A stretch of DNA of 64,000 nt, from the NCBI GenBank assembly GCA_001442985.1, contig LDYB01000007.1:1-64000 (forward strand), read 5' to 3'. How positions within the stretch are numbered: the stretch's first letter is position 1; each line of letters starts with the position of its first letter. The position numbers and the translations under genes are program-made. The notes beneath the pieces are model-generated. The model made no database searches. It was not told the DNA's origin and was given only the letters and a program-made list of their open reading frames with translations. Origin of the DNA: Armatimonadetes bacterium DC. Its GTDB lineage: Bacteria; Armatimonadota; Fimbriimonadia; Fimbriimonadales; GBS-DC. Positions 27,592-45,352 of the stretch are shown piece after piece.

Positions 27592-28218
27592 ATGCGTATC
27601 CAGTATACTGTTCTTATTCTGATCGTTTGGATGATGCTCCAAACGCCCCAGACTCGTCTTGCATCGCGTTCCGAAGCTGTCGACTCACTGTTTGTATTAC
27701 TCAAGCCCGGACAAGTTTATACTCTTCGCTTTGATAAGCCTTTACCTGTAAGTGGTAAAAGTGAGTCTGAAAGACCCCCTTATAGGGAATGGGGGGCAGG
27801 ATATGTGGAATTCATAGAAGTCAATCCGCGTTTTATCCGGTTTCGTACTCTCACCTTGGAAGAAGCACTGAAAGAGGTAGAGAGAACAAACGCTAAGATC
27901 AAAAAGTGGGGAGGCGAGCCTGTTAATCCTGACTCCGTTCGTAGTGAATACGAAGGAGGATCCCCCTTTAACTTGGTTTACTATCTATGGTCGCCTCCTC
28001 AGGGGAATAGACCCGCCGTCAACAAGGATCTGCTTTTAGTTAGTTTTAGTATAGAGACTCCGCAAAGGCTGACTGTCGCCCATAAGAAACGCGTGGGCAC
28101 TAAAGGACTAGAGATCAAGCCAATGCTGAATCGCACGGGCGCGCGTCTTTTTCTTATCCCTGAAGGAAAAGGGTCAGCCTTATACATTGTGCCTTCCAAC
28201 AAGCGTTATTCACCATAA
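27592..28218 (+). CDS. Secreted hypothetical protein, first cargo gene after cassette A
   Basis: 208 residues from ATG 27592, preceded by GGAGGAGGA. The N-terminus MRIQYTVLILIVWMMLQTPQ is a signal peptide. The mature part is mixed alpha/beta and Lys-rich (VEFIEVNPRFIRFRTLTLEEALKEVERTNAKIKKW). No family or catalytic motif is recognised. Base composition is visibly lower in GC than the flanking chromosome, consistent with transfer. Confidence 0.6.
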   Translation: MRIQYTVLILIVWMMLQTPQTRLASRSEAVDSLFVLLKPGQVYTLRFDKPLPVSGKSESERPPYREWGAGYVEFIEVNPRFIRFRTLTLEEALKEVERTNAKIKKWGGEPVNPDSVRSEYEGGSPFNLVYYLWSPPQGNRPAVNKDLLLVSFSIETPQRLTVAHKKRVGTKGLEIKPMLNRTGARLFLIPEGKGSALYIVPSNKRYSP

Positions 28219-28221
28219 TAT

Positions 28222-28407
28222 TTGGAGGCGCAGCAGGTATTGCCGCCTTTCTGGGTCGTGCCGTTGACGGTGCGTGTGGACACGACGGGAAAGTCGGCAG
28301 GAGAACACCTCCAGCGTGTGGAACTGATTGTGCGGGATGGTCGCTATAGCTGGCGTGAGGGGATAGCGGTTCGGCTCACGGTGCAATCCGCCTTCAAATC
28401 ACGATAG
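28222..28407 (+). pseudogene. Fragment of a DUF1573-like domain protein
   Basis: A 61-codon frame opening at TTG 28222. VVPLTVRVDTTGKSAGEHLQ and VELIVRDGRYSWREGIAVRLTV read like the last beta strands of a DUF1573/ASH-type Ig-like domain, with the rest of the domain missing. There is no signal peptide and no real start. It is likely the 3' stub of a lost gene, showing recombination between cargo genes. Confidence 0.45.
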
Positions 28408-28419
28408 GAGGCGATGGAG

Positions 28420-28791
28420 ATGACGAGACGAGTAATGCAGATCAGTATGTGGACGCTGGCTCTCGTGATTATCTTGCCAGTGACTACGCTCATTTCATGT
28501 GGTGGCTGTCCAGATACACGCTCTGCAACGCATAACGAGGATCGCTATATCGAATGCATTGACACTCACTGCCATACCTGTTGGCGATACGCTAGACCTA
28601 TCCGGCAGGATTTCTGCGTTGGTGGCGCGAACGGCATGAGCTGCAAGTGCACTTCAAGAATGGTAGTTATCGATGTCAGCAGCTTTAAATGCGATCACTC
28701 GTGTAATTGCACATTTATCCCCGTTGGAAGACCGTTCACTTTTGAGGTTGAGGAACGCACCTGTTCCACCAGTTCCTGCCTAATTCCGTGA
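28420..28791 (+). CDS. Small Cys-rich exported lipoprotein-like protein
   Basis: 123 residues. ATG 28420 is preferred because AGGAGG lies 8 nt upstream; ATG 28414 would have only 2 nt. The signal segment ends LISCGGC, a possible lipobox. The mature part has about 15 cysteines in pairs (CIDTHCHTC, CKCTS, CDHSCNC, CSTSSC), suggesting a disulfide-stabilised extracellular protein. No family is recognised. It is followed 30 nt later by a larger exported protein; the same small Cys-rich/large pair recurs at 33202 and 35072. Confidence 0.6.
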   Translation: MTRRVMQISMWTLALVIILPVTTLISCGGCPDTRSATHNEDRYIECIDTHCHTCWRYARPIRQDFCVGGANGMSCKCTSRMVVIDVSSFKCDHSCNCTFIPVGRPFTFEVEERTCSTSSCLIP

Positions 28792-28821
28792 GTCCCGAAG
28801 CCGCTCAGGGAGAGGAAAGGC

Positions 28822-29958
28822 ATGCGAAGAGTAGCACTGGGGCTTTGCAAATGGCTGGCTTTGCTAAGTGTATTGTACGCCCAGACAGGAGGCGTGCTGG
28901 AGCGCCTGCAGCGATATCAGCAGCAGTACGATGAATGGGCATCCCAGCACACCTTCTTCTGGCAAATCGTGTACTCTGAATCGAACAACCTGGCAGCCGT
29001 TGAGCAGGAACTTACTTCTCGGAGAGAGACTGGTCATTTCAGAATTCTGACCCCTCCCTCAATGTCAGTGGTTGCACACCTTACAATTGCTCGCACCCCA
29101 GAACTAAGCATGGTAGTGCTTAAACATGTAAGCGGTGATTGGTTTCCTGGCTACAGTAAGGTTCTACGCATCTATCGAGGGCGGGACTGGCTGTCAGTCG
29201 ATGGGGGCGAGGCAGGAGGGGTAGACACAGAGCAAATCTCCCAGACTGTTTATATTATACCTCTTCCGCAAGGAAAGCATATTTTGCTGGACTCGTTGTC
29301 CTTCGCACCAACCCTGCATCCCGCTTTTTTCGCTGGGACCAGTCCTTTTGAACCAGCATTTAAATGCATTCCGCGCCCCGAATGGCTTCTCGACAAAGCA
29401 ACAGATTCCCAGATTATCCTGAAACAGCTATTTGAGAATGGGGCTGCCGAGAAAGGGGGTTATTACCTGATTCTTCATCCTGAAGGCTGGGTTCAAGAAT
29501 TTCAGGTACGACCGAATCCCACCACGATTCAAAGTCGGATTACCGTCCTAAAGACCCAGAGGCATGGCAACTTTGTTGTACCTTCGGAAGTGCTGGCAGA
29601 GTTTCGTTGGAAGAATTTTAGTCAAGCGCGTTTGGTTGCGCGACTGGTTCGCCTTGAAAAGACTGGAACAGTCAAGGTAGAGCATCCTATCGGTGCGCAT
29701 GTCAGCGATTATCGACTCACGAACCCCGACCAGTGGTGCACTGATGGTGCGGGCAAAGTGGTGAATTATATCTGGAAAGGTCAGTTACCCACTCTAACAG
29801 AGCTGGAGCAGAGGTATCAGGCAGCTTCTCCGCCAGCGGGTATCCCCATTCCACCTGCCCGGCAAGGGCGGTGGTGGCTCTATTTACCAGGTATCCTTTT
29901 AGTTGTTGCAGGCGCCTATCTATGGTGGCGTAGCAAGCGGGTGACGAAGATGGGGTGA
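28822..29958 (+). CDS. Exported protein with C-terminal membrane anchor
   Basis: 378 residues. The signal peptide (MRRVALGLCKWLALLSVLYAQ) is followed by a helical segment ERLQRYQQQYDEW and a large domain of unknown type. A Pro-rich linker and a C-terminal transmembrane helix (LPGILLVVAGAYLWW) with RSKR come last, giving a type I orientation. No catalytic motif is seen. It overlaps the next gene (prepilin) by 4 nt. Confidence 0.6.
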   Translation: MRRVALGLCKWLALLSVLYAQTGGVLERLQRYQQQYDEWASQHTFFWQIVYSESNNLAAVEQELTSRRETGHFRILTPPSMSVVAHLTIARTPELSMVVLKHVSGDWFPGYSKVLRIYRGRDWLSVDGGEAGGVDTEQISQTVYIIPLPQGKHILLDSLSFAPTLHPAFFAGTSPFEPAFKCIPRPEWLLDKATDSQIILKQLFENGAAEKGGYYLILHPEGWVQEFQVRPNPTTIQSRITVLKTQRHGNFVVPSEVLAEFRWKNFSQARLVARLVRLEKTGTVKVEHPIGAHVSDYRLTNPDQWCTDGAGKVVNYIWKGQLPTLTELEQRYQAASPPAGIPIPPARQGRWWLYLPGILLVVAGAYLWWRSKRVTKMG

Positions 29959-30776
29959 AAAGAAGCGGTTTTTCCCTTGCAGAGTTGCTGGTGGTCATCG
30001 GTATTCTCATGCTGCTGACCGCACTACTGTTTCCCGTGCTACAATCCGCACGAGAGGGTGGACGGCGTAGTAAATGTATCACCCAAATGCGCCAGCTCGG
30101 ACACAGCGTGCTGACGTATCTTGCCGACTTCGATGAAACCTATCCCATGGCGGCTTATGTGCAGCCTTCCGCACCCAACGGAGGGTGCCTCTTCACACTT
30201 TACCACGCACTGGCGCCTTATATTCAAGATAAGCAAATCGTGGTCTGCCCGTCCGACAATCGTCCAGTGGATGTGGTTCAGGTGTTTGCCAATCACTGGG
30301 AGCTTTGTCCTGCGATGGGGTTTCGGCACACCAGCTATATGGCAAACTGGTGCCTATTCGAGGTAGGCTGGCTACCGCCGTGGCTATCTTTACCGCATCA
30401 GGTGATTTCCGCAAGCAAGCTGGAGTATATTGCCCAGACGGTAGCTTTCTTCGACGCGGTGATGACCGGTCCTCCGGGTTTAACACCCTATGTGCAGGGG
30501 CGCCATCTGGAGATCGCCATCGCCAACTTCGCAGATGGACACGCGCAGCCGCTACATACGCGCTACACTGCGATAGCGATTCCGCGTGGGGACGGCGGTA
30601 CCGCACCACTTTATTGCCTGCTCGATGTGGGACCCTATTATTCCGGAGATGGCTTTTGTGAAGGGATGATATTCGGGTTAGCAGCCAAGCGTCGGGATGG
30701 GCGCTGGTGCTGGCACTGTCCAGGACGACCGCGTGAAAGTCGCTGGTATATGCAAGGCAGTTGTGAGACTCCATAA
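29955..30776 (+). CDS. Prepilin-like protein with H-x9-DG motif (island copy)
   Basis: 273 residues starting at GTG 29955, overlapping the previous stop. The cleavage site is KRSGFSLAELLVVIGI. The stalk is followed by GGRRSKCITQMRQLG, and the C-terminal HLEIAIANFADGH carries an exact H-x9-DG. It is divergent in sequence from the chromosomal prepilin at 7965. It would need the host prepilin peptidase. Its presence between an anchored protein and Lnt suggests an envelope-directed operon. Confidence 0.8.
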   Translation: MKRSGFSLAELLVVIGILMLLTALLFPVLQSAREGGRRSKCITQMRQLGHSVLTYLADFDETYPMAAYVQPSAPNGGCLFTLYHALAPYIQDKQIVVCPSDNRPVDVVQVFANHWELCPAMGFRHTSYMANWCLFEVGWLPPWLSLPHQVISASKLEYIAQTVAFFDAVMTGPPGLTPYVQGRHLEIAIANFADGHAQPLHTRYTAIAIPRGDGGTAPLYCLLDVGPYYSGDGFCEGMIFGLAAKRRDGRWCWHCPGRPRESRWYMQGSCETP

Positions 30777-30806
30777 ACTATCCTTTGGTAGAAAGAGGGT
30801 CGGTGG

Positions 30807-32309
30807 ATGTGGGGCGCCGCAGGCTTAATCATCAGTGGTTGTGGACTGGCATTGGCATTTACGCCAGGGAAGGGGTGGTTACTGTTATGGATGCCAGCAC
30901 TCACTTTCTGGCTGCTGCGCAATGTGGGTTGGCGTCCTGGACTGATAGGCGGCTGGCTCTGGGGTTTGAGCTTCTATCTGGTTCATGGCTTTTGGGGACT
31001 GCCTGTGTTTGAGCAACGAGCGGCGTCACCACTCTACGCGGGCATAGCCTGGGCAATCACCGCTTTGTGGTTGGGCTTCTTTTACGCACTCTTCGGATTA
31101 CTCCTGAATCTCATCCCAACAACGAGCTGGTTTGGGCGCGCCGTTGGAGGCGCCTCCGCGTGGACAGTTTGCCAGTGGTTGCAGGGCCTGGGTTCCTACA
31201 GTCTGCCCTGGGCACAGTGGGGAATAGCCCTGACCCAAATACCACTCCTGATTCAGCTGGTCGATTTAGGCGGTGTGTGGTTCTTAGAATGGATGATCGC
31301 CTACTGGAACATGCTGCTGTGCGAGTTCGTTCGTGGAACAACCGAGCAATTGGCTACAGCACAGCTACGAAACAAGGTGGCAGCCATGCTAATCGTGGTC
31401 GCTTTGTTTTGGGGGAGCTATGGCGCGCTTCGTTTAAATCAATACAGAGATACTGACTTGAGCAAGGAAGCGACGAAGATACGTGTGGGTATATTGCAGT
31501 ATCAAGAGCATCCTATCGCAGAGCGCAACGAACAGGTTCTTGACTTCTGGATTACCAAAACTCAACAACATAAACCGGAGTGGCTGGTTCTGCCCGAATC
31601 GACAGTGCAGCTTGACCCATCCAACCCTGACTGGCAACGCTGGCAGCAGCACATCCGAACCCTCAATAGCATGGTACTGGTGGGCACGGGACGTCGCGTG
31701 GGTTCTGGATATCGGGCGAACAGTGCCTGTTTACTGATGGCAGATCGGGAGCCAGTATGTTCCGATAAAGTGAAACTGATGCCCTTCACAGAGTTACCTC
31801 CACCCCTGCCAACGCTCAGCTTCTGGCAAGCACTCGGACTGGATTCCAAGAGTACCGTCCAATCCGGTAAACAGCCCATAGCCCTGCAAGGCGCGGATGG
31901 CAGGCGGGTGGGCGCATTGATTTGCGTCGAGTCGTTGTATGGCTGGGTGGCACGCGAGATGGTGAGGAATGACGCCCAGTGGATCGCTGTATTGACCAAC
32001 GATGAGTGGCTCCCCTCAGGGATGACTCGCGGGCAGTTTGCTCAGTATTGTGCCCTGCGTGCAGTGGAATGTCGCCGCTGGATTGCGCGGGCGTCTTCGG
32101 TGGGTGTTAGTGGGTTTTATGCGCCGACAGGGGAACTCGTCGCGTCGTTGCCGATGGGCAAGCCGGGCGTGCTGGTATACCCCATCACCCCTCGCACTGA
32201 CCAGACCCTCTATGTGCGTTGGGGCGACTGGTGGGTCTATCTCTGTTTAGCAGCGATGATTGTCGTATGGCTCGGACGGTTGTCAAGCACTGATTGGCGC
32301 AGGGCATAA
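30807..32309 (+). CDS. lnt: Apolipoprotein N-acyltransferase (Lnt)
   Basis: 500 residues. Five or six N-terminal membrane helices precede a carbon-nitrogen hydrolase domain with the Glu-Lys-Cys triad in LPESTVQ, KVKLMPFTELPP and LICVESLYG, and a C-terminal membrane helix. It adds the third acyl chain to lipoproteins. Carriage of lnt on an island next to a putative lipoprotein gene is notable. The last eight residues (SSTDWRRA) and the stop are encoded by the first bases of sigma cassette B, so the native C-terminus was probably replaced when the cassette joined. Confidence 0.85.
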   Translation: MWGAAGLIISGCGLALAFTPGKGWLLLWMPALTFWLLRNVGWRPGLIGGWLWGLSFYLVHGFWGLPVFEQRAASPLYAGIAWAITALWLGFFYALFGLLLNLIPTTSWFGRAVGGASAWTVCQWLQGLGSYSLPWAQWGIALTQIPLLIQLVDLGGVWFLEWMIAYWNMLLCEFVRGTTEQLATAQLRNKVAAMLIVVALFWGSYGALRLNQYRDTDLSKEATKIRVGILQYQEHPIAERNEQVLDFWITKTQQHKPEWLVLPESTVQLDPSNPDWQRWQQHIRTLNSMVLVGTGRRVGSGYRANSACLLMADREPVCSDKVKLMPFTELPPPLPTLSFWQALGLDSKSTVQSGKQPIALQGADGRRVGALICVESLYGWVAREMVRNDAQWIAVLTNDEWLPSGMTRGQFAQYCALRAVECRRWIARASSVGVSGFYAPTGELVASLPMGKPGVLVYPITPRTDQTLYVRWGDWWVYLCLAAMIVVWLGRLSSTDWRRA

Positions 32310-33158
32310 AACCGTCTGTTTTGCGTGGCTGTTTGTTTTCGTTAGGCAGGAATCTCTCCATTCTGTGCGAATCGTAGTATTAGCAAGGAGGGCGACGATG
32401 CCTACTTTGTGGGTTCACGGACAACAGAAGCCTGCGCGGAGGCTTGGGAAGGCACTCTGTTCGGCATCCGCGGGCAATCTCGCAGGGGGGGGGGGCGATG
32501 ACCGACACTCGGCACTTTCCCGACGAGTCGCCGCGCGACCTGCCACTCGAATGGCAGCGTGCTATGCGCGTCGCCCTCCGACTGCTGGCACAGCGCTATC
32601 CCAACCCTTGCCCCGACCCGCACGAATGGAAACGGGATTGCGAACAGGAAGCCTATGTCGCGCTTGCTGAGGCTGCTCCCCGCTATGCCTGCCCCGATCC
32701 ACCGCCTGCCGATCCTGAGCGGCATCACCTGTTGTGGCTAGCCAATCAGGCATATAATGCCCTGCGACGGTGGTGGCGTCAGGAAGTGCAGTACTACGCG
32801 CACACCGTGCCGATGGTGGTGGAGGAGGAAACGGGCGAGGAGGTGGAGATTGAGTTGGAGGATGCGGTGGCGGAGGCAGCGGTGCTGGCAGTGTTGGAGC
32901 GGATGTTTTGTGCGCAGGTATTGGAGCAGCTCTCCCCCTATTTGGATGCGAGGGACTGGGGGGTGTTGCAGGGTTTGGCGGAGGGGAGAACCCAGTCGGA
33001 GGTGGCACAGGAGTTGGGGATGACACAGCAGGCAGTGAGTAAGCGTTTGGGGGCGCTTCGGCGTTTGGCGCGGGCGATTTTGGGGGAATTGGGGTGCGAG
33101 TGGTTGTAATTTTTGCGGCTGGATGGCATGTATAAGTAGGAGGCGGGAATGGTGGTGT
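32282..33158 (+). repeat. 877-bp sigma-factor cassette, copy B
   Basis: Nearly identical to 26666-27542. The left junction lies inside the end of lnt. The right junction is after GGTGGTGT, beyond which only a short imperfect similarity (CCAAAACGATGGAGGAG) continues in both copies up to the next start codon. Confidence 0.92.
32498..33109 (+). CDS. Sigma-70-like (ECF type) RNA polymerase sigma factor, copy B
   Basis: 203 residues, identical to the product of 26882-27493. The start ATG 32498 follows eleven G and CG; in copy A the run is ten because of one substitution, so total length is the same. Two identical sigma genes would give a doubled dose, and deletion between them by homologous recombination would remove all cargo from 27543 to 33158. 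The cargo behind this copy is a Cys-rich protein and a 399-residue exported protein. Confidence 0.75.
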   Translation: MTDTRHFPDESPRDLPLEWQRAMRVALRLLAQRYPNPCPDPHEWKRDCEQEAYVALAEAAPRYACPDPPPADPERHHLLWLANQAYNALRRWWRQEVQYYAHTVPMVVEEETGEEVEIELEDAVAEAAVLAVLERMFCAQVLEQLSPYLDARDWGVLQGLAEGRTQSEVAQELGMTQQAVSKRLGALRRLARAILGELGCEWL

Positions 33159-33168
33159 TCTCCCGCCT
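33141..33168 (+). other. Hairpin after sigma cassette B
   Basis: AGGCGGGA (33141-33148) pairs perfectly with TCCCGCCT (33161-33168) around a 12-nt loop. There is no T-run behind it, so it is more likely a leader or attenuator-like structure for the next gene than a terminator. Confidence 0.45.
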
Positions 33169-33201
33169 GCCAACGAACCAAAACGATGGAGGAGAATGAA
33201 G

Positions 33202-33771
33202 ATGATATGGCGACAGAAGATACTGTGGGTAAGCACACTCACATTGGTTGTAACCGTCGGTATTGGACGCGGTGCACCCAATCTGTCATACTCCACCAAT
33301 GATGACCCGTGTCAGTGTTCGTCTGGCTGGCAGGTTAATAACCCTGTACAATTCATCCAAGACACTCCGCAAGGTCAACATGTACATGAAAACCCACACT
33401 GCGATAGAAGTCTTCTTATACCAGAAGAGTGTGGATATACGCGTAAGCGCATAATAGGGGAATGGCGCTGTGGCGAAGGTGGGCGCTCTCACAGATGTAA
33501 TAATATCCCCTGGTCGCTTACGGGCTCTGATGAGAGTTATCCAGTGTGCTTTCCGGCTGAGGGACTGGGGGCATGCACAGGTGTTATACACATATTTAAC
33601 TTACACCAAGTAACCGTGAAGCAAGTCGCACGTTGTCCTGATACAGGAGCTTGTCGCGAGCGCATTCAGATTGATAGCATCCCGGAAAGGTTTACAATAT
33701 CATACATCATACAGGATTGCCCATGCAAACCAGTACCAGAAGAGCCGGTCGTGGTTGTAATTTCACATTGA
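33202..33771 (+). CDS. Cys-rich secreted hypothetical protein
   Basis: 189 residues. ATG 33202 has GGAGGAG at 7-nt spacing, better than ATG 33196. The signal peptide is MIWRQKILWVSTLTLVVTVG. The mature part has many cysteines (CQCSSG, CGEGG, CPDTGACRE, CPCKP) spread over 150 residues, suggesting several disulfides. No family is recognised. It is the first cargo gene of cassette B and the counterpart of the Cys-rich gene at 28420, with which it shares only layout and the CPDT motif. Confidence 0.6.
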   Translation: MIWRQKILWVSTLTLVVTVGIGRGAPNLSYSTNDDPCQCSSGWQVNNPVQFIQDTPQGQHVHENPHCDRSLLIPEECGYTRKRIIGEWRCGEGGRSHRCNNIPWSLTGSDESYPVCFPAEGLGACTGVIHIFNLHQVTVKQVARCPDTGACRERIQIDSIPERFTISYIIQDCPCKPVPEEPVVVVISH

Positions 33772-33787
33772 TCTGGAGGGACATACA

Positions 33788-34987
33788 ATGCTGAAAACGA
33801 TTACTTTATGGGCATCCATGCTGCTTGTCGCATCGAACCTGATGGCTCAGTCTCCAATTATTGTAGTGGGTGCGGTAAGTGATCATGAGCGTCAGTACGC
33901 TGTCGAGTTGTTGCGGGCTGTCGAAATTGAGCGAATCCAGCAGTTTCACGCGTTTCAGCAACGCGCGAAGCAACTGGGCTTTGTTGTGGAGGCTCATGGG
34001 AACTACTGGTTCGTTCTGCCGCGGAGTATTGGACCCGACAGCATCTATGGCTATGCTGCGGCACTGCTGCGTGGGTTGAAAGAGCTGTCCTCAGTGCCCG
34101 GTACCTTTCGCGTGGATGACCTCCCAGCCCCAGCGCGCGAAGCCTGTAGGGAGTTGCTGCTTCGTATCGGAGAACTTGCCCTTAGCAGCTTTCAACCCGA
34201 GTTGCAGCAATCCCTGCAAAGCGCTCTTGGACAGGCAGTAGAACAAAAGCCGTTAGCGCTCTCACTTATGGAAAAGAACCAGCTATCGATCTCGATCCAT
34301 GTTGCCTTGCGTCCCCAGATAGGTATTGGTGAGCATTCACTGCGCATTCCCCCGATTGTCCTCTTTGTTCCGCGCTCTTCACCGCTTCCCGCGGATCTTC
34401 AAGCCCGAGTCGAACAGCTGCTTGCATCCCAAGAAACGGCTACCTCGCCCTTGCCCAGCCATCGTGAGCGTGATTCGGCTTTGCAGACGCTGCCGCTGCC
34501 CGCTGCTTGGAGCCAAGCGGCGAAGGAGTTACGCGAGCGTCGTGGCGTGGCTTTTGCTCATCTCGATCTCTACTTCTCCAAAACGCTAACACCTTCTGAG
34601 GCAGCTCAGGTTGGGCAGGAGTACCTTCGGCGCCTCGAACACCAGGCACTGCAAGCACAGGGGTCATTCAAAAATGCTTTGCGTGATCTTGTAGAGCATT
34701 GGGCAGCTCAAAATGCCTTTTTGAAAGAAAACCTTCCACCCTTTGGGCGAATTCCATTCAACAAGCTTTCCTCCTACCTCCAGCACCAATTGATGGACAT
34801 GCTGAGAGGTTATAAGGGTGATACTGCTCTCCTATCGCAAATTCAAAACAGCGGCTGGTTCCAGCTCTCGCCCAACGACATAGATATTGTTATCAGCTAT
34901 CCCACCCGAGCAATCCCATTACCCAATATGGAGGACCTTGTCATTTATGACTGGAGAGGTTATTTGCTCACCGATCTCATGCGGTGA
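33788..34987 (+). CDS. Large secreted hypothetical protein
   Basis: 399 residues. Signal peptide MLKTITLWASMLLVASNLMAQ. The mature part is mostly helical (ERQYAVELLRAVEIERIQQFHAF; SEAAQVGQEYLRRLEHQAL) with no cysteine cluster and no known motif. The gene follows the Cys-rich gene by 16 nt with a CTGGAGGG ribosome site, so the two are likely co-expressed. Partnership between the two products is plausible but unproven. Confidence 0.6.
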   Translation: MLKTITLWASMLLVASNLMAQSPIIVVGAVSDHERQYAVELLRAVEIERIQQFHAFQQRAKQLGFVVEAHGNYWFVLPRSIGPDSIYGYAAALLRGLKELSSVPGTFRVDDLPAPAREACRELLLRIGELALSSFQPELQQSLQSALGQAVEQKPLALSLMEKNQLSISIHVALRPQIGIGEHSLRIPPIVLFVPRSSPLPADLQARVEQLLASQETATSPLPSHRERDSALQTLPLPAAWSQAAKELRERRGVAFAHLDLYFSKTLTPSEAAQVGQEYLRRLEHQALQAQGSFKNALRDLVEHWAAQNAFLKENLPPFGRIPFNKLSSYLQHQLMDMLRGYKGDTALLSQIQNSGWFQLSPNDIDIVISYPTRAIPLPNMEDLVIYDWRGYLLTDLMR

Positions 34988-35253
34988 ACAGAGACTCAGC
35001 TCGAAAACATGGAGTGGTCCTTTGGCGAGGCGTTAAGCGAGTGGGCTAAACTGATGGAGGAGGTATGAGGCGAGGAATACGCAGAGTGCTTCCCGAGTAG
35101 AGGAAGCGAGTGCACCTATGACGGTTTTGGCGAGATCAAGGTGCAGTGGACAGAACAGGCCACTTGTGTGCCGAGCCGTCAGGTTTGCAAATGCGGTTCA
35201 TTCAGTAGGTTGGATTTCCCTATAGTGGGAACAAACATTGTGAGGAAGTGCCA
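34988..35253 (+). other. Stretch with degraded cargo sequence
   Basis: Between the 399-residue protein and the last island ORF there is no intact gene. GGAGGAGG at 35056-35063 followed by ATG 35065 looks like a cargo-gene start, but that frame stops after 11 codons. A shifted frame from 35072 is open and Cys-rich (separate entry). Confidence 0.5.
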
Positions 35254-35257
35254 ATGA
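35072..35257 (+). pseudogene. 3' remnant of a third Cys-rich secreted protein gene
   Basis: A 61-residue frame with no start codon: EEYAECFPSRGSECTYDG, then CVPSRQVCKCGSFSR, ending VRKCQ. Its cysteine spacing resembles the other two Cys-rich cargo proteins. A stop lies immediately upstream in frame (35066-35068). The last codons overlap the next start as ATGA, as between functional cargo genes. It appears to be a frameshifted or truncated third copy of the Cys-rich position. Confidence 0.5.
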
Positions 35258-35434
35258 AACAAATTGATCTGAGTCAGTGGTTAGTCGCTTGCTATCAATC
35301 CTTCGCCCGTCGGATCGGGTTGACAGGGCTGGTGGGATTGTTGCTATGCTGCTGCGCTTTCGGAGAGGGGAGGGCACCCTCCCCGACATACTACGATGCT
35401 CGGGAGCGCGCTGCCGCTGCACTGACATTTGAGT

Positions 35435-35472
35435 CACATTGTCTCACCCTGCGGTTGCAGTTGTCAATTAGT
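35435..35472. repeat. 38-bp direct repeat, right copy
   Basis: Identical to 26630-26667. Joining 26667 directly to 35473 recreates a plausible ancestral order (glyQ, then the amine oxidase promoter and gene on the minus strand) without the island. Confidence 0.9.
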
Positions 35473-35475
35473 GTA
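35470..35475 (-). promoter_or_regulatory. Orphaned -10-like element TACACT, ancestral amine oxidase promoter
   Basis: On the minus strand GGGTACACT straddles the edge of the right repeat and matches the window's common motif. At the left repeat the corresponding bases read TTGACT, so the element is lost there. It now points into the truncated island end. Confidence 0.4.
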
Positions 35476-35522
35476 CCCAGTCGCGAGGGGTTGCACAAGC
35501 GGCGTGCCTGTTTCTCTGGGCT

Positions 35523-36425
35523 TTACCGTCTTGTTGCGGGTAGCCCCACGCGCCATTCTTTCTGGAGCAGGGGGAAACCTTCCGCCTCGCGCTTCTCCAG
35601 ATATTTGAGGCAGCAGGCGCGCGCCAGAGTGCGAATGCGCTGAATATAACTGGCACGCTCCGTAACCGAGATGCTCCCCCGCGCGTCCAGTAGATTGAAG
35701 ATGTGGGAGCACTTCAGGGCGAGATCAAACGCCGGGTGAACCCAGCCTTTCTCCACGATACGGGCGCTCTCTTTTTCGTACATCTCGAACAGGCGGAACA
35801 GCATTTCGGTATCCGCCTCTTCAAAGTTGTAATAGTTATGCTCCAGCTCGGCAAGGTAGTCCACATCGGCGTAGGTAATGCCGCGCCCCCATTCCAGTTC
35901 CCATACGCTGTTTTTCTTTTGCAACAGCATGCAGAGCCGTTCGGGACCGTAGGTAATCTCGGCGCACACGGGGTCGCACTCGATGCCGCCCACCTGCTGA
36001 AAGTAGGTGAACTGGGTGATTTCGGTGCCGTTGAGCCACACCTCCCAGCCAACGCCCGACGCCCCCAGGGTGGGCGCCTCCCAGTCGTCCTCGACGAAGC
36101 GGATGTCATGTTCGCTGGGTTCGATTCCAATCGCACGCAGACTTTCCAGATAGACATCCACCACATCGTCGGGCGAAGGCTTCAGTATCACCTGATACTG
36201 GTAGTAATGCTGGAGGCGCATCGGGTTGCGTGCGTAGCGCCCGTCGGCGGGGCGCCGCGAAGGTTGCACATAGGCGACATACCATGGCTCTGGTCCCAGC
36301 GCCCGCAGAGTGGTGTAGGGCGCCATCGTGCCTGCGCCAACCTCCACATCGTAGGGCTGCAGGATTAAACAGCCGTAATCCGCCCAGAACTGTTCCAGCC
36401 GAAAGAGCAGCTCCTGAAAAGTCAT
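35523..36425 (-). CDS. glyQ: Glycyl-tRNA synthetase alpha subunit
   Basis: 300 residues, usual length. Class II motifs for the alpha2beta2 type are present: [31 protein letters not shown] at the N-terminus, [35 protein letters not shown] and [13 protein letters not shown]. It charges tRNA-Gly together with GlyS. No glyS gene is adjacent, so the two subunits are unlinked here. A GGGTACACT box ends 8 nt before the ATG. Confidence 0.96.
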
Positions 36426-43770: not shown

Positions 43771-44211
43771 CTATTTTACCTCTGTGCCGTTGGTGTGTCC
43801 GTTTTTACAGCGGGGGCATAGCCCATAGTAGACGATACGGGCGCCCTGAATTTCGTAGCCCGAGCGTTCCGCGACGGCACGCTCCACCCGCTCGATGAGT
43901 TCCTCGTCGAAGTCCACCACCTGGTGGCACCGCACGCACACGAGGTTGATGTGGGGTTGCAGGTCTGCCTCATAGTGTTCCATGCCGTCGCCTGCGTCGC
44001 CCAGTGTATGCACCAGCCCCAGCTGCTTCAGCACATTCAGCGTTTTGTAGACGGTGGCGAGGCTCAATGTGGGGAACTGGGGCAGGAGCGCGTGATAAAT
44101 CATCATTGCCGTCGGGTGGTCTTTGCTCTCGGCGAGTGTTTTGCAGATCGCCACCCGTTGTGGCGTGATGCGCAATCCGGCTCGCTTCAGCCCTTCTATC
44201 AGATGGTTCAT
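43771..44211 (-). CDS. Fur-family regulator, PerR-like
   Basis: 146 residues. A winged-helix N-terminal domain (RITPQRVAICKTLAESKDHPTAMMIYHAL; LATVYKTLNVLKQLGL) is followed by metal-binding residues (EHYEAD, PHINLVC) and two CxxC zinc pairs (CVRC and CPRC). HPTA and the D-x-H pattern are closer to PerR than to ferric Fur, so peroxide or Fe/Mn sensing is likely. It is the first gene of the operon with the CcrM-like enzyme and the P1B-4 ATPase. A Fur/PerR-like dyad overlaps its own -10. Confidence 0.88.
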   Translation of the reverse strand: MNHLIEGLKRAGLRITPQRVAICKTLAESKDHPTAMMIYHALLPQFPTLSLATVYKTLNVLKQLGLVHTLGDAGDGMEHYEADLQPHINLVCVRCHQVVDFDEELIERVERAVAERSGYEIQGARIVYYGLCPRCKNGHTNGTEVK

Positions 44212-44243: not shown

Positions 44244-44258
44244 TGAGAATTATACTCC
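44244..44258 (-). promoter_or_regulatory. Putative Fur/PerR box overlapping the -10 of the regulator operon
   Basis: A 7-1-7 dyad (TGAGAAT T ATACTCC) has an inner GAGAATTATACTC core that pairs at five of six positions. TATAAT of the minus-strand promoter (44249-44254) lies inside it. This is the expected place for autorepression by the PerR-like protein 33 nt downstream. It matches 10 of 14 positions of the general Fur 7-1-7 consensus. Confidence 0.45.
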
Positions 44259-44354
44259 ATAAGAGGGCATGATGTCAAGGGGGTGGGAGATGTTCAGACA
44301 GCCTGGCTTCTCCAATCCCTGCATTTTTACCAGTTTTCTCCCCGATTGTCCAGT

Positions 44355-44370: not shown

Positions 44371-44397
44371 GTCTTTAAGGCGACGGAGGTATGGAGC

Positions 44398-45195
44398 ATG
44401 TGGAACCGAGCGAACTTCTGGCGAGGTGTAAGCCTCCTGGTGGTTGCAAGTGTGATTCATGGTGCGGCATGGAGTATCGTCCGACGACATGATGTCCCTG
44501 ACAGTCAATATCAGCTGCTTGGAGCCTCGGCTCTCGCCGCTACGGTAGGGCGAGTTATTGGCTCAAACGCGTCGGGTTCAGGAACTGTGATTGCAAACGG
44601 CAGGTGGGTACTCACCGCGGCGCATGTGGTCTATAACAATCCCAATCTCGTGTTCCAGCTGGGCGCCAGCACCTACACTGTGCAAAATGTGTATATCCAC
44701 CCCAACTACAACCCGAGCGACTTGATGTACGGAGGCGATATCGCTCTGCTGGAACTGTCGGCTCCGGTGGTCGGGGTAACCCCTGCCCTTATTAACACCA
44801 GCTTCAGCCCGATCGGGCTGAACAGTATTTCCGTTGGCTACGGTGCTACAGGTACTGGGCTAACAGGATACACAACTTACGATGGTCGGCGTCGTGGGAT
44901 GACGAATGTTGTGGACGCCTATCTGAGCTCATACAACAACTCCACCGAGTGGATTCTGAGCGACTTTGACCATCCAACAGACTCTACCTACAGCACGATG
45001 GGTAGCAGCATGGCGACGCCCTTTGAGGGTCTGGTGGCACCAGGGGACAGCGGTGGTCCTGTGTTCATTCAGGTTGGGACAAACCGCTACATTGCCGGGG
45101 TTCATTCATTTATTGCTGCGCCACTCGACTATTACCCGAATGCGAGCTACGGTGACATTCAGGCTTCCACGAATGTCGCCCTGTATGCAGGCTGA
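44398..45195 (+). CDS. Secreted trypsin-like serine protease
   Basis: 265 residues. ATG 44398 is preceded by GGAGG at 8 nt. A signal peptide (NFWRGVSLLVVASVIHGAAW) is followed by an S1 catalytic domain with the triad His in WVLTAAHVV, Asp in YGGDIALLEL and Ser in APGDSGGPVF. All three catalytic residues are present. The reading frame ends at TGA 45193-45195, but the same frame continues open for 31 codons encoding a perfect PEP-CTERM anchor (separate entry). The gene product as annotated is therefore released, not anchored, unless the stop is read through. Confidence 0.88.
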   Translation: MWNRANFWRGVSLLVVASVIHGAAWSIVRRHDVPDSQYQLLGASALAATVGRVIGSNASGSGTVIANGRWVLTAAHVVYNNPNLVFQLGASTYTVQNVYIHPNYNPSDLMYGGDIALLELSAPVVGVTPALINTSFSPIGLNSISVGYGATGTGLTGYTTYDGRRRGMTNVVDAYLSSYNNSTEWILSDFDHPTDSTYSTMGSSMATPFEGLVAPGDSGGPVFIQVGTNRYIAGVHSFIAAPLDYYPNASYGDIQASTNVALYAG

Positions 45196-45288
45196 ATTGA
45201 GGCGACCGTTCCGGAGCCGGCGTCGTTGCTGGTGCTGGCGACGGGCGTCGTCGGTCTGCTCGCGCGTCGGCGCATGCGCCAGTCGTAA
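45196..45288 (+). other. In-frame PEP-CTERM anchoring tail behind a UGA stop
   Basis: Directly after the protease TGA the same frame reads IEAT, then VPEPASLLVLATGVVGLLA, then RRRMRQS and TAA at 45286-45288. This has all three parts of a PEP-CTERM signal: VPEPAS, a hydrophobic helix and a basic cluster. A single-base change (for example TGG to TGA) would explain the interruption. Confidence 0.8.
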
Positions 45289-45311: not shown

Positions 45312-45352
45312 CGGGTTGCGGGGGTGCGTCCCCTGCAACCCGATTTTGATTT
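45312..45352 (+). terminator. Intrinsic terminator after the protease
   Basis: A long GC-rich stem (CGGGTTGC GGGG paired with CCCC T GCAACCCG, 45312-45342) is followed by ATTTTGATTT. It lies beyond the PEP-CTERM tail rather than directly after the premature stop, as expected if the tail belonged to the original gene. Confidence 0.75.

Follow-up and report, generated by a model that had tools for sequence, protein, structure and literature searches.

A single in-frame UGA at a conserved tryptophan codon has cut a PEP-CTERM protease gene of Armatimonadetes bacterium DC

Results

Organization of the locus

The window, i.e. the whole stretch of DNA analysed here, comprises 64,000 nucleotides of contig LDYB01000007.1 of Armatimonadetes bacterium DC (assembly GCA_001442985.1). 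Its plus strand carries a gene for a trypsin-like protease that ends at a TGA, and the same frame stays open beyond this codon:

44385–44389, plus strand: GGAGG, Shine-Dalgarno-like, 8 bases 5' of the ATG at 44398 (sequence)
44398–45195, plus strand: open reading frame of 265 residues ending in TGA, with an N-terminal hydrophobic leader and a trypsin-like (S1) domain, His76/Asp114/Ser218 (PF00089, E 1.5e-17; alignment, model and fold search)
45193–45195, plus strand: in-frame TGA corresponding to residue 266, where the C-terminal helix has its conserved Trp; the next base is A (UGA-A) (sequence, alignments and model)
45196–45285, plus strand: 30 more sense codons in the same frame, encoding the end of the C-terminal helix and a PEP-CTERM sorting tail (motif at 45205–45273) (translation, profile matches and genome scan)
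45286–45288, plus strand: TAA ending the frame kept open in the nearest relatives (sequence and comparison with relatives)
45312–45342, plus strand: hairpin resembling an intrinsic terminator, 13 pairs followed by the T-rich tail ATTTTGATTT (hairpin scan)

The leader was recognized by eye from the sequence. Beyond the TGA the frame reads IEATVPEPASLLVLATGVVGLLARRRMRQS up to the TAA, and around the stop the protein sequence is '...LYAG*IEATVPEPAS...'. An earlier sequence-only reading of the locus had placed the ATG, the TGA and the terminal TAA at exactly these positions. The intrinsic terminator that it described after the TAA corresponds to the hairpin listed above.

Two other observations were made in the window. 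Upstream of the divergent ORF 43771–44211, which appears to encode a Fur-family regulator, the minus strand holds a sigma-70-type promoter match at 44249–44278 (12/12; TTGACA, 18 nt, TATAAT). The G+C content of positions 28001–36000 is 0.535–0.553, compared to about 0.60 elsewhere.

Protease domain and position of the stop

The catalytic triad (His76, Asp114 and Ser218) belongs to the invariant columns of the alignment. A fold search with the model of the read-through form found the chymotrypsin fold, with elastases, kallikreins and factor IXa as matches. The Pfam Trypsin match covers profile positions 24–198 of 220 in the short form and 24–220 of 220 with the TGA read as Trp. Residue 266 is the penultimate position of the Pfam domain. 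In the AlphaFold model of the read-through form it lies within a helix (residues 260–270) with a pLDDT of about 96. Sequence alignment with salmon elastase (1elt) pairs residue 266 with a Trp near the C-terminal end of 1elt, presumably the C-terminal helix residue Trp237 (chymotrypsin numbering).

A complete S1 domain includes the C-terminal helix with this Trp, and the short form stops exactly there. The stop thus costs the protein not only its anchor but also the end of the protease domain. Because it lies within the last helix of the domain, the short form need not be functional as a secreted protease. It is doubtful that this form is a clean secreted protease. The sequence-only reading had described a protease separated from its anchor by one in-frame UGA. 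The single UGA and the frame continuing into the tail are as described, but the stop is located inside the last protease helix and not between protease and anchor. Similarly, the proposed conversion of an anchored protease into a secreted one is correct in that the product loses the tail, whereas a clean release is weakened by the cut in the protease domain.

Homologues and the conserved tryptophan

The protein is present in 21 of the 61 genomes searched, including that of the window. The nearest relatives, G010 and G012, belong to the same taxonomic family and are 47 and 46% identical, respectively; the only genome of the same genus in the comparison is that of the window itself. In these two the sequences '...YYADWINATVPEPTS...' and '...YYTNWINATVPEPTS...', respectively, continue to a TAA, with the Trp leading into a PEP-CTERM tail at the end of the product. 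A full-length query against 18 genomes of the family gave an internal stop in the full-length match of the window and none in the matches of G010 and G012. In this search, '1 TGA' or '1 TAA' in several short C-terminal matches is taken as the terminal stop of the respective gene.

Trp266 is invariant in the alignment (31 of 31 rows, i.e. all 30 relatives and the window row read with TGA as Trp). A larger homologue set was derived from 84 of 85 loci (L018 had no tblastn hit and was left out) and contains 79 distinct sequences, three of which are gapped at position 266 where contig ends are reached. Of the 76 distinct homologues in which position 266 is occupied, 71 have Trp and none has a stop. 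The five others have Gln, Gln, His, Phe and Ile and are all only about 26 to 31% identical. The orthologue comparison that the sequence-only reading had called for thus yields continuous relatives with Trp at the codon of the stop. In the contigs of the wider genomes, the single-protein scan gave no match and the alignment query found 56 loci, none of them a close relative.

Nine PEP-CTERM motifs in short frames of relatives, chosen by eye among the matches listed, were inspected as possible further severed tails. In five cases (L119, L176, L178, L179 and L180) a contig end interrupts the gene. L118, at a distance of about 480 bases from the end of its contig, has the tail of L119 again; this shared tail and the shared flanking residues near two contig ends of one draft genome probably reflect assembly redundancy or a repeat. 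For the remaining three (L116, L117 and L177) the open frame is short, with 62, 55 and 59 residues, respectively. Since several stops occur in their upstream frames, they are not cases of an intact protein interrupted by one UGA; they are possibly decayed PEP-CTERM genes. In Phycisphaerales, homologues (L121, L122, L123, L125 and L138) carry a similar tail with PSP or PAP replacing PEP, e.g. IPSPSSVLVLGFGIGLSARRRR, which is possibly a variant sorting motif of these trypsins.

The PEP-CTERM tail and the exosortase

By itself, the 30-residue tail reaches 31.6 bits with the Pfam PEP-CTERM profile (PF07589; E 1.5e-7, cut-off 20.7) and also exceeds the cut-off of TIGR02595. When the whole genome is scanned in six frames, the tail motif has an E-value of 2.7e-6 and is thus not a chance match. 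The PEP-CTERM anchor seen beyond the TGA in the sequence-only reading is therefore real and a good tail. In the standard-code product it is absent from the C-terminus, since the product ends at the TGA and the tail lies beyond it.

The six-frame scan detected 28 PEP-CTERM motifs over the cut-off in this genome (26 at E 0.001 in a shorter scan). The open frame around the motif comprises 143 to 405 residues in 27 of these and 30 residues at the window locus alone, which is the sole severed tail among the 28. Counting all matches of the scan, 29 of 30 are located in open frames of at least 143 residues. One exosortase is encoded in the genome (PF09721, 149.5 bits, contig G000:C4). A tandem pair of PEP-CTERM genes with near-identical ends (L051/L052) is found at G000:C13:14944-15799.

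The decay of such a tail was simulated under neutral substitution (kappa 3, no indels). The fraction of tails that are still open and motif-like is 41% at 0.05 substitutions per site, 13% at 0.1, 5% at 0.15 and 0.7% at 0.2. Since simulated decay is rapid and the tail in the window is intact, three explanations fit: a recent stop, a tail that is still in use, or an incorrect base.

UGA as a stop codon in this genome

UGA is an ordinary stop in this organism. Release factor 2 (prfB) is present (480 bits, frame of 368 residues), and TGA terminates 15 of the 39 long ORFs in the window, the 265-residue ORF included. Among the other PEP-CTERM tails, 10 of 27 distinct sequences end in TGA directly after the Arg-rich end, four of them in TGA-A. 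For this count, one sequence shared by L037 and L038 was merged and L042 contributed an additional neighbouring gene. Reading past these TGA codons adds 29 to 329 unrelated codons.

The tRNA search gave 48 matches, 47 of which are called by ARAGORN; a weak RF00005 match (L111, G000:C15:37541) is not called a tRNA. The sole tRNA-Trp found has the anticodon CCA, and none of the 47 tRNAs has the anticodon UCA. In the ARAGORN fold the tRNA-Trp has a full anticodon stem of 5 bp (closed by U27-A43), A9 and G24 (our own numbering). According to an excerpt of PMC13092985, UGA read-through is tied to a 4-bp anticodon stem, A9C and G24A in tRNA-Trp. With its 5-bp stem, A9 and G24, the present tRNA-Trp lacks all three of these suppressor features. 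It is ordinary at each of them, and a suppressor tRNA is rejected. No SelB over the cut-off was found in this 95% complete draft; the best match has 190 bits compared to a cut-off of 242 and covers only the first 266 of 581 positions.

The 80 nt downstream of the stop fold no better than shuffled sequences (z -0.82). The literature search yielded no work joining PEP-CTERM with read-through. Among the matches listed for PEP-CTERM and exosortase, there was no case of a premature stop.

Discussion

A PEP-CTERM protease is interrupted by a single UGA at the codon of a conserved Trp, which is most simply read as a recent nonsense allele. In this reading, an ancestral one-piece PEP-CTERM protease had its Trp codon changed to UGA, and the product now comprises 265 residues without a tail. 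We assign this reading a probability of roughly 0.7. A recent nonsense mutation in an anchored protease was one of the two possibilities raised by the sequence-only reading, and the continuous relatives with Trp at this codon support it well. The case is an ordinary one, with an artefact of consensus or strain as the main rival.

According to the nonsense-allele reading, the ancestor would have been an ordinary one-piece protease sorted by exosortase, with a signal peptide, an S1 domain and a PEP-CTERM tail. The codon of the near-universal Trp in the last protease helix would then have changed to UGA in this genome. Standard-code translation would stop there and give an exported protein of 265 residues without the end of the C-terminal helix and without the PEP-CTERM tail. 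Such a product could not be sorted by exosortase, and it may fold poorly. The undecayed tail suggests that the change is recent. This scenario takes the base to be real in the organism and the shorter protein to be made. Occasional misreading of UGA-A by tRNA-Trp may add a little full-length anchored protein.

An artefact of consensus or assembly is clearly less probable, yet it deserves serious consideration. The population would have the Trp codon, and the assembled base would be an error or the allele of a minority strain. The source assembly is a 26-contig, 95% complete draft. A difference of one codon at a position that is nearly always Trp fits an error or a strain variant, and the tail shows no decay. 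The evidence against it is indirect: no comparable break is present in the other PEP-CTERM frames, where all matches but one (29 of 30) sit in long open frames.

A leaky UGA kept by selection is improbable. Mostly the short form would be made, and misreading of UGA-A by tRNA-Trp would restore the Trp in an anchored minority, giving two localisations from one gene. In E. coli, UGA followed by A is prone to misreading by tRNA-Trp (excerpt of PMC5289835), and Trp, the ancestral residue here, is inserted at UGA more often than any other amino acid (excerpt of PMC11126739). Since UGA-A is leaky and Trp is favoured at UGA in E. coli, basal read-through that restores the Trp is plausible; by this analogy, UGA-A would plausibly give a small amount of full-length product. 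The intact tail is equally expected if function is retained via read-through. However, selection for the leaky stop is opposed by several observations. The stop occurs in no relative examined and is followed by no RNA structure (z -0.82). The tRNA-Trp, with five anticodon-stem pairs, A9 and G24, lacks the features linked to read-through in the excerpt of PMC13092985. UGA-A also terminates at least four other PEP-CTERM genes of the genome, and the short form misses part of its last helix. As to the features of programmed UGA read-through, the stop is not conserved in relatives, and neither a stimulatory structure nor a suppressor tRNA was found. The other possibility raised by the sequence-only reading, a UGA read through to make two forms, thus found no positive evidence in conservation, RNA structure or the tRNA-Trp. 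Slightly more improbable still is the detailed version of a retained leaky stop. Most chains would end in the last helix. The few percent read by the ordinary tRNA-Trp at UGA-A would regain the Trp and be sorted to the surface by exosortase; the efficiency of termination would then set the dose of anchored protease.

Two recoding explanations have practically no probability: that UGA means tryptophan in this organism, suggested by the coincidence of the stop with a Trp position, is contradicted by the presence of RF2, the lack of a tRNA-Trp(UCA) among the 47 tRNAs and the use of UGA as a stop where expected in other PEP-CTERM genes, and a selenocysteine codon, for which the UGA is at least in frame, is rejected because no SelB exceeds the cut-off in this 95% complete draft, with Trp and not Cys at the position in relatives and no hairpin signal after the stop.

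The locus matters mainly for annotation, in which an interrupted PEP-CTERM protease should be recorded instead of a secreted variant. Should the UGA prove both genuine and leaky, it would offer a natural example of read-through deciding the surface sorting of an enzyme, although none of the present results calls for this.

Comparison with known systems

Leaky UGA codons read by tRNA-Trp (Engelberg-Kulka 1981, as cited in an excerpt of PMC5289835) resemble the window locus in the UGA-A context and in the residue, since Trp fits. They differ in that the stop in the window is not conserved, no suppressor tRNA was found, and any read-through at this locus is hypothetical. The catalytic residues and the fold are those of S1 trypsin-like peptidases (PF00089), especially the PEP-CTERM trypsins of the same order, which are up to 47% identical to the window protein (G010); the difference is the stop codon at the conserved Trp of the C-terminal helix. 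Compared to proteins sorted by the PEP-CTERM/exosortase (EpsH) system (PF07589, TIGR02595, PF09721), the window protein differs in that its tail is severed by the in-frame UGA and missing from the standard-code product. The tail in frame past the stop is nevertheless typical of that system, and the genome that carries it has one exosortase and 28 motifs over the cut-off.
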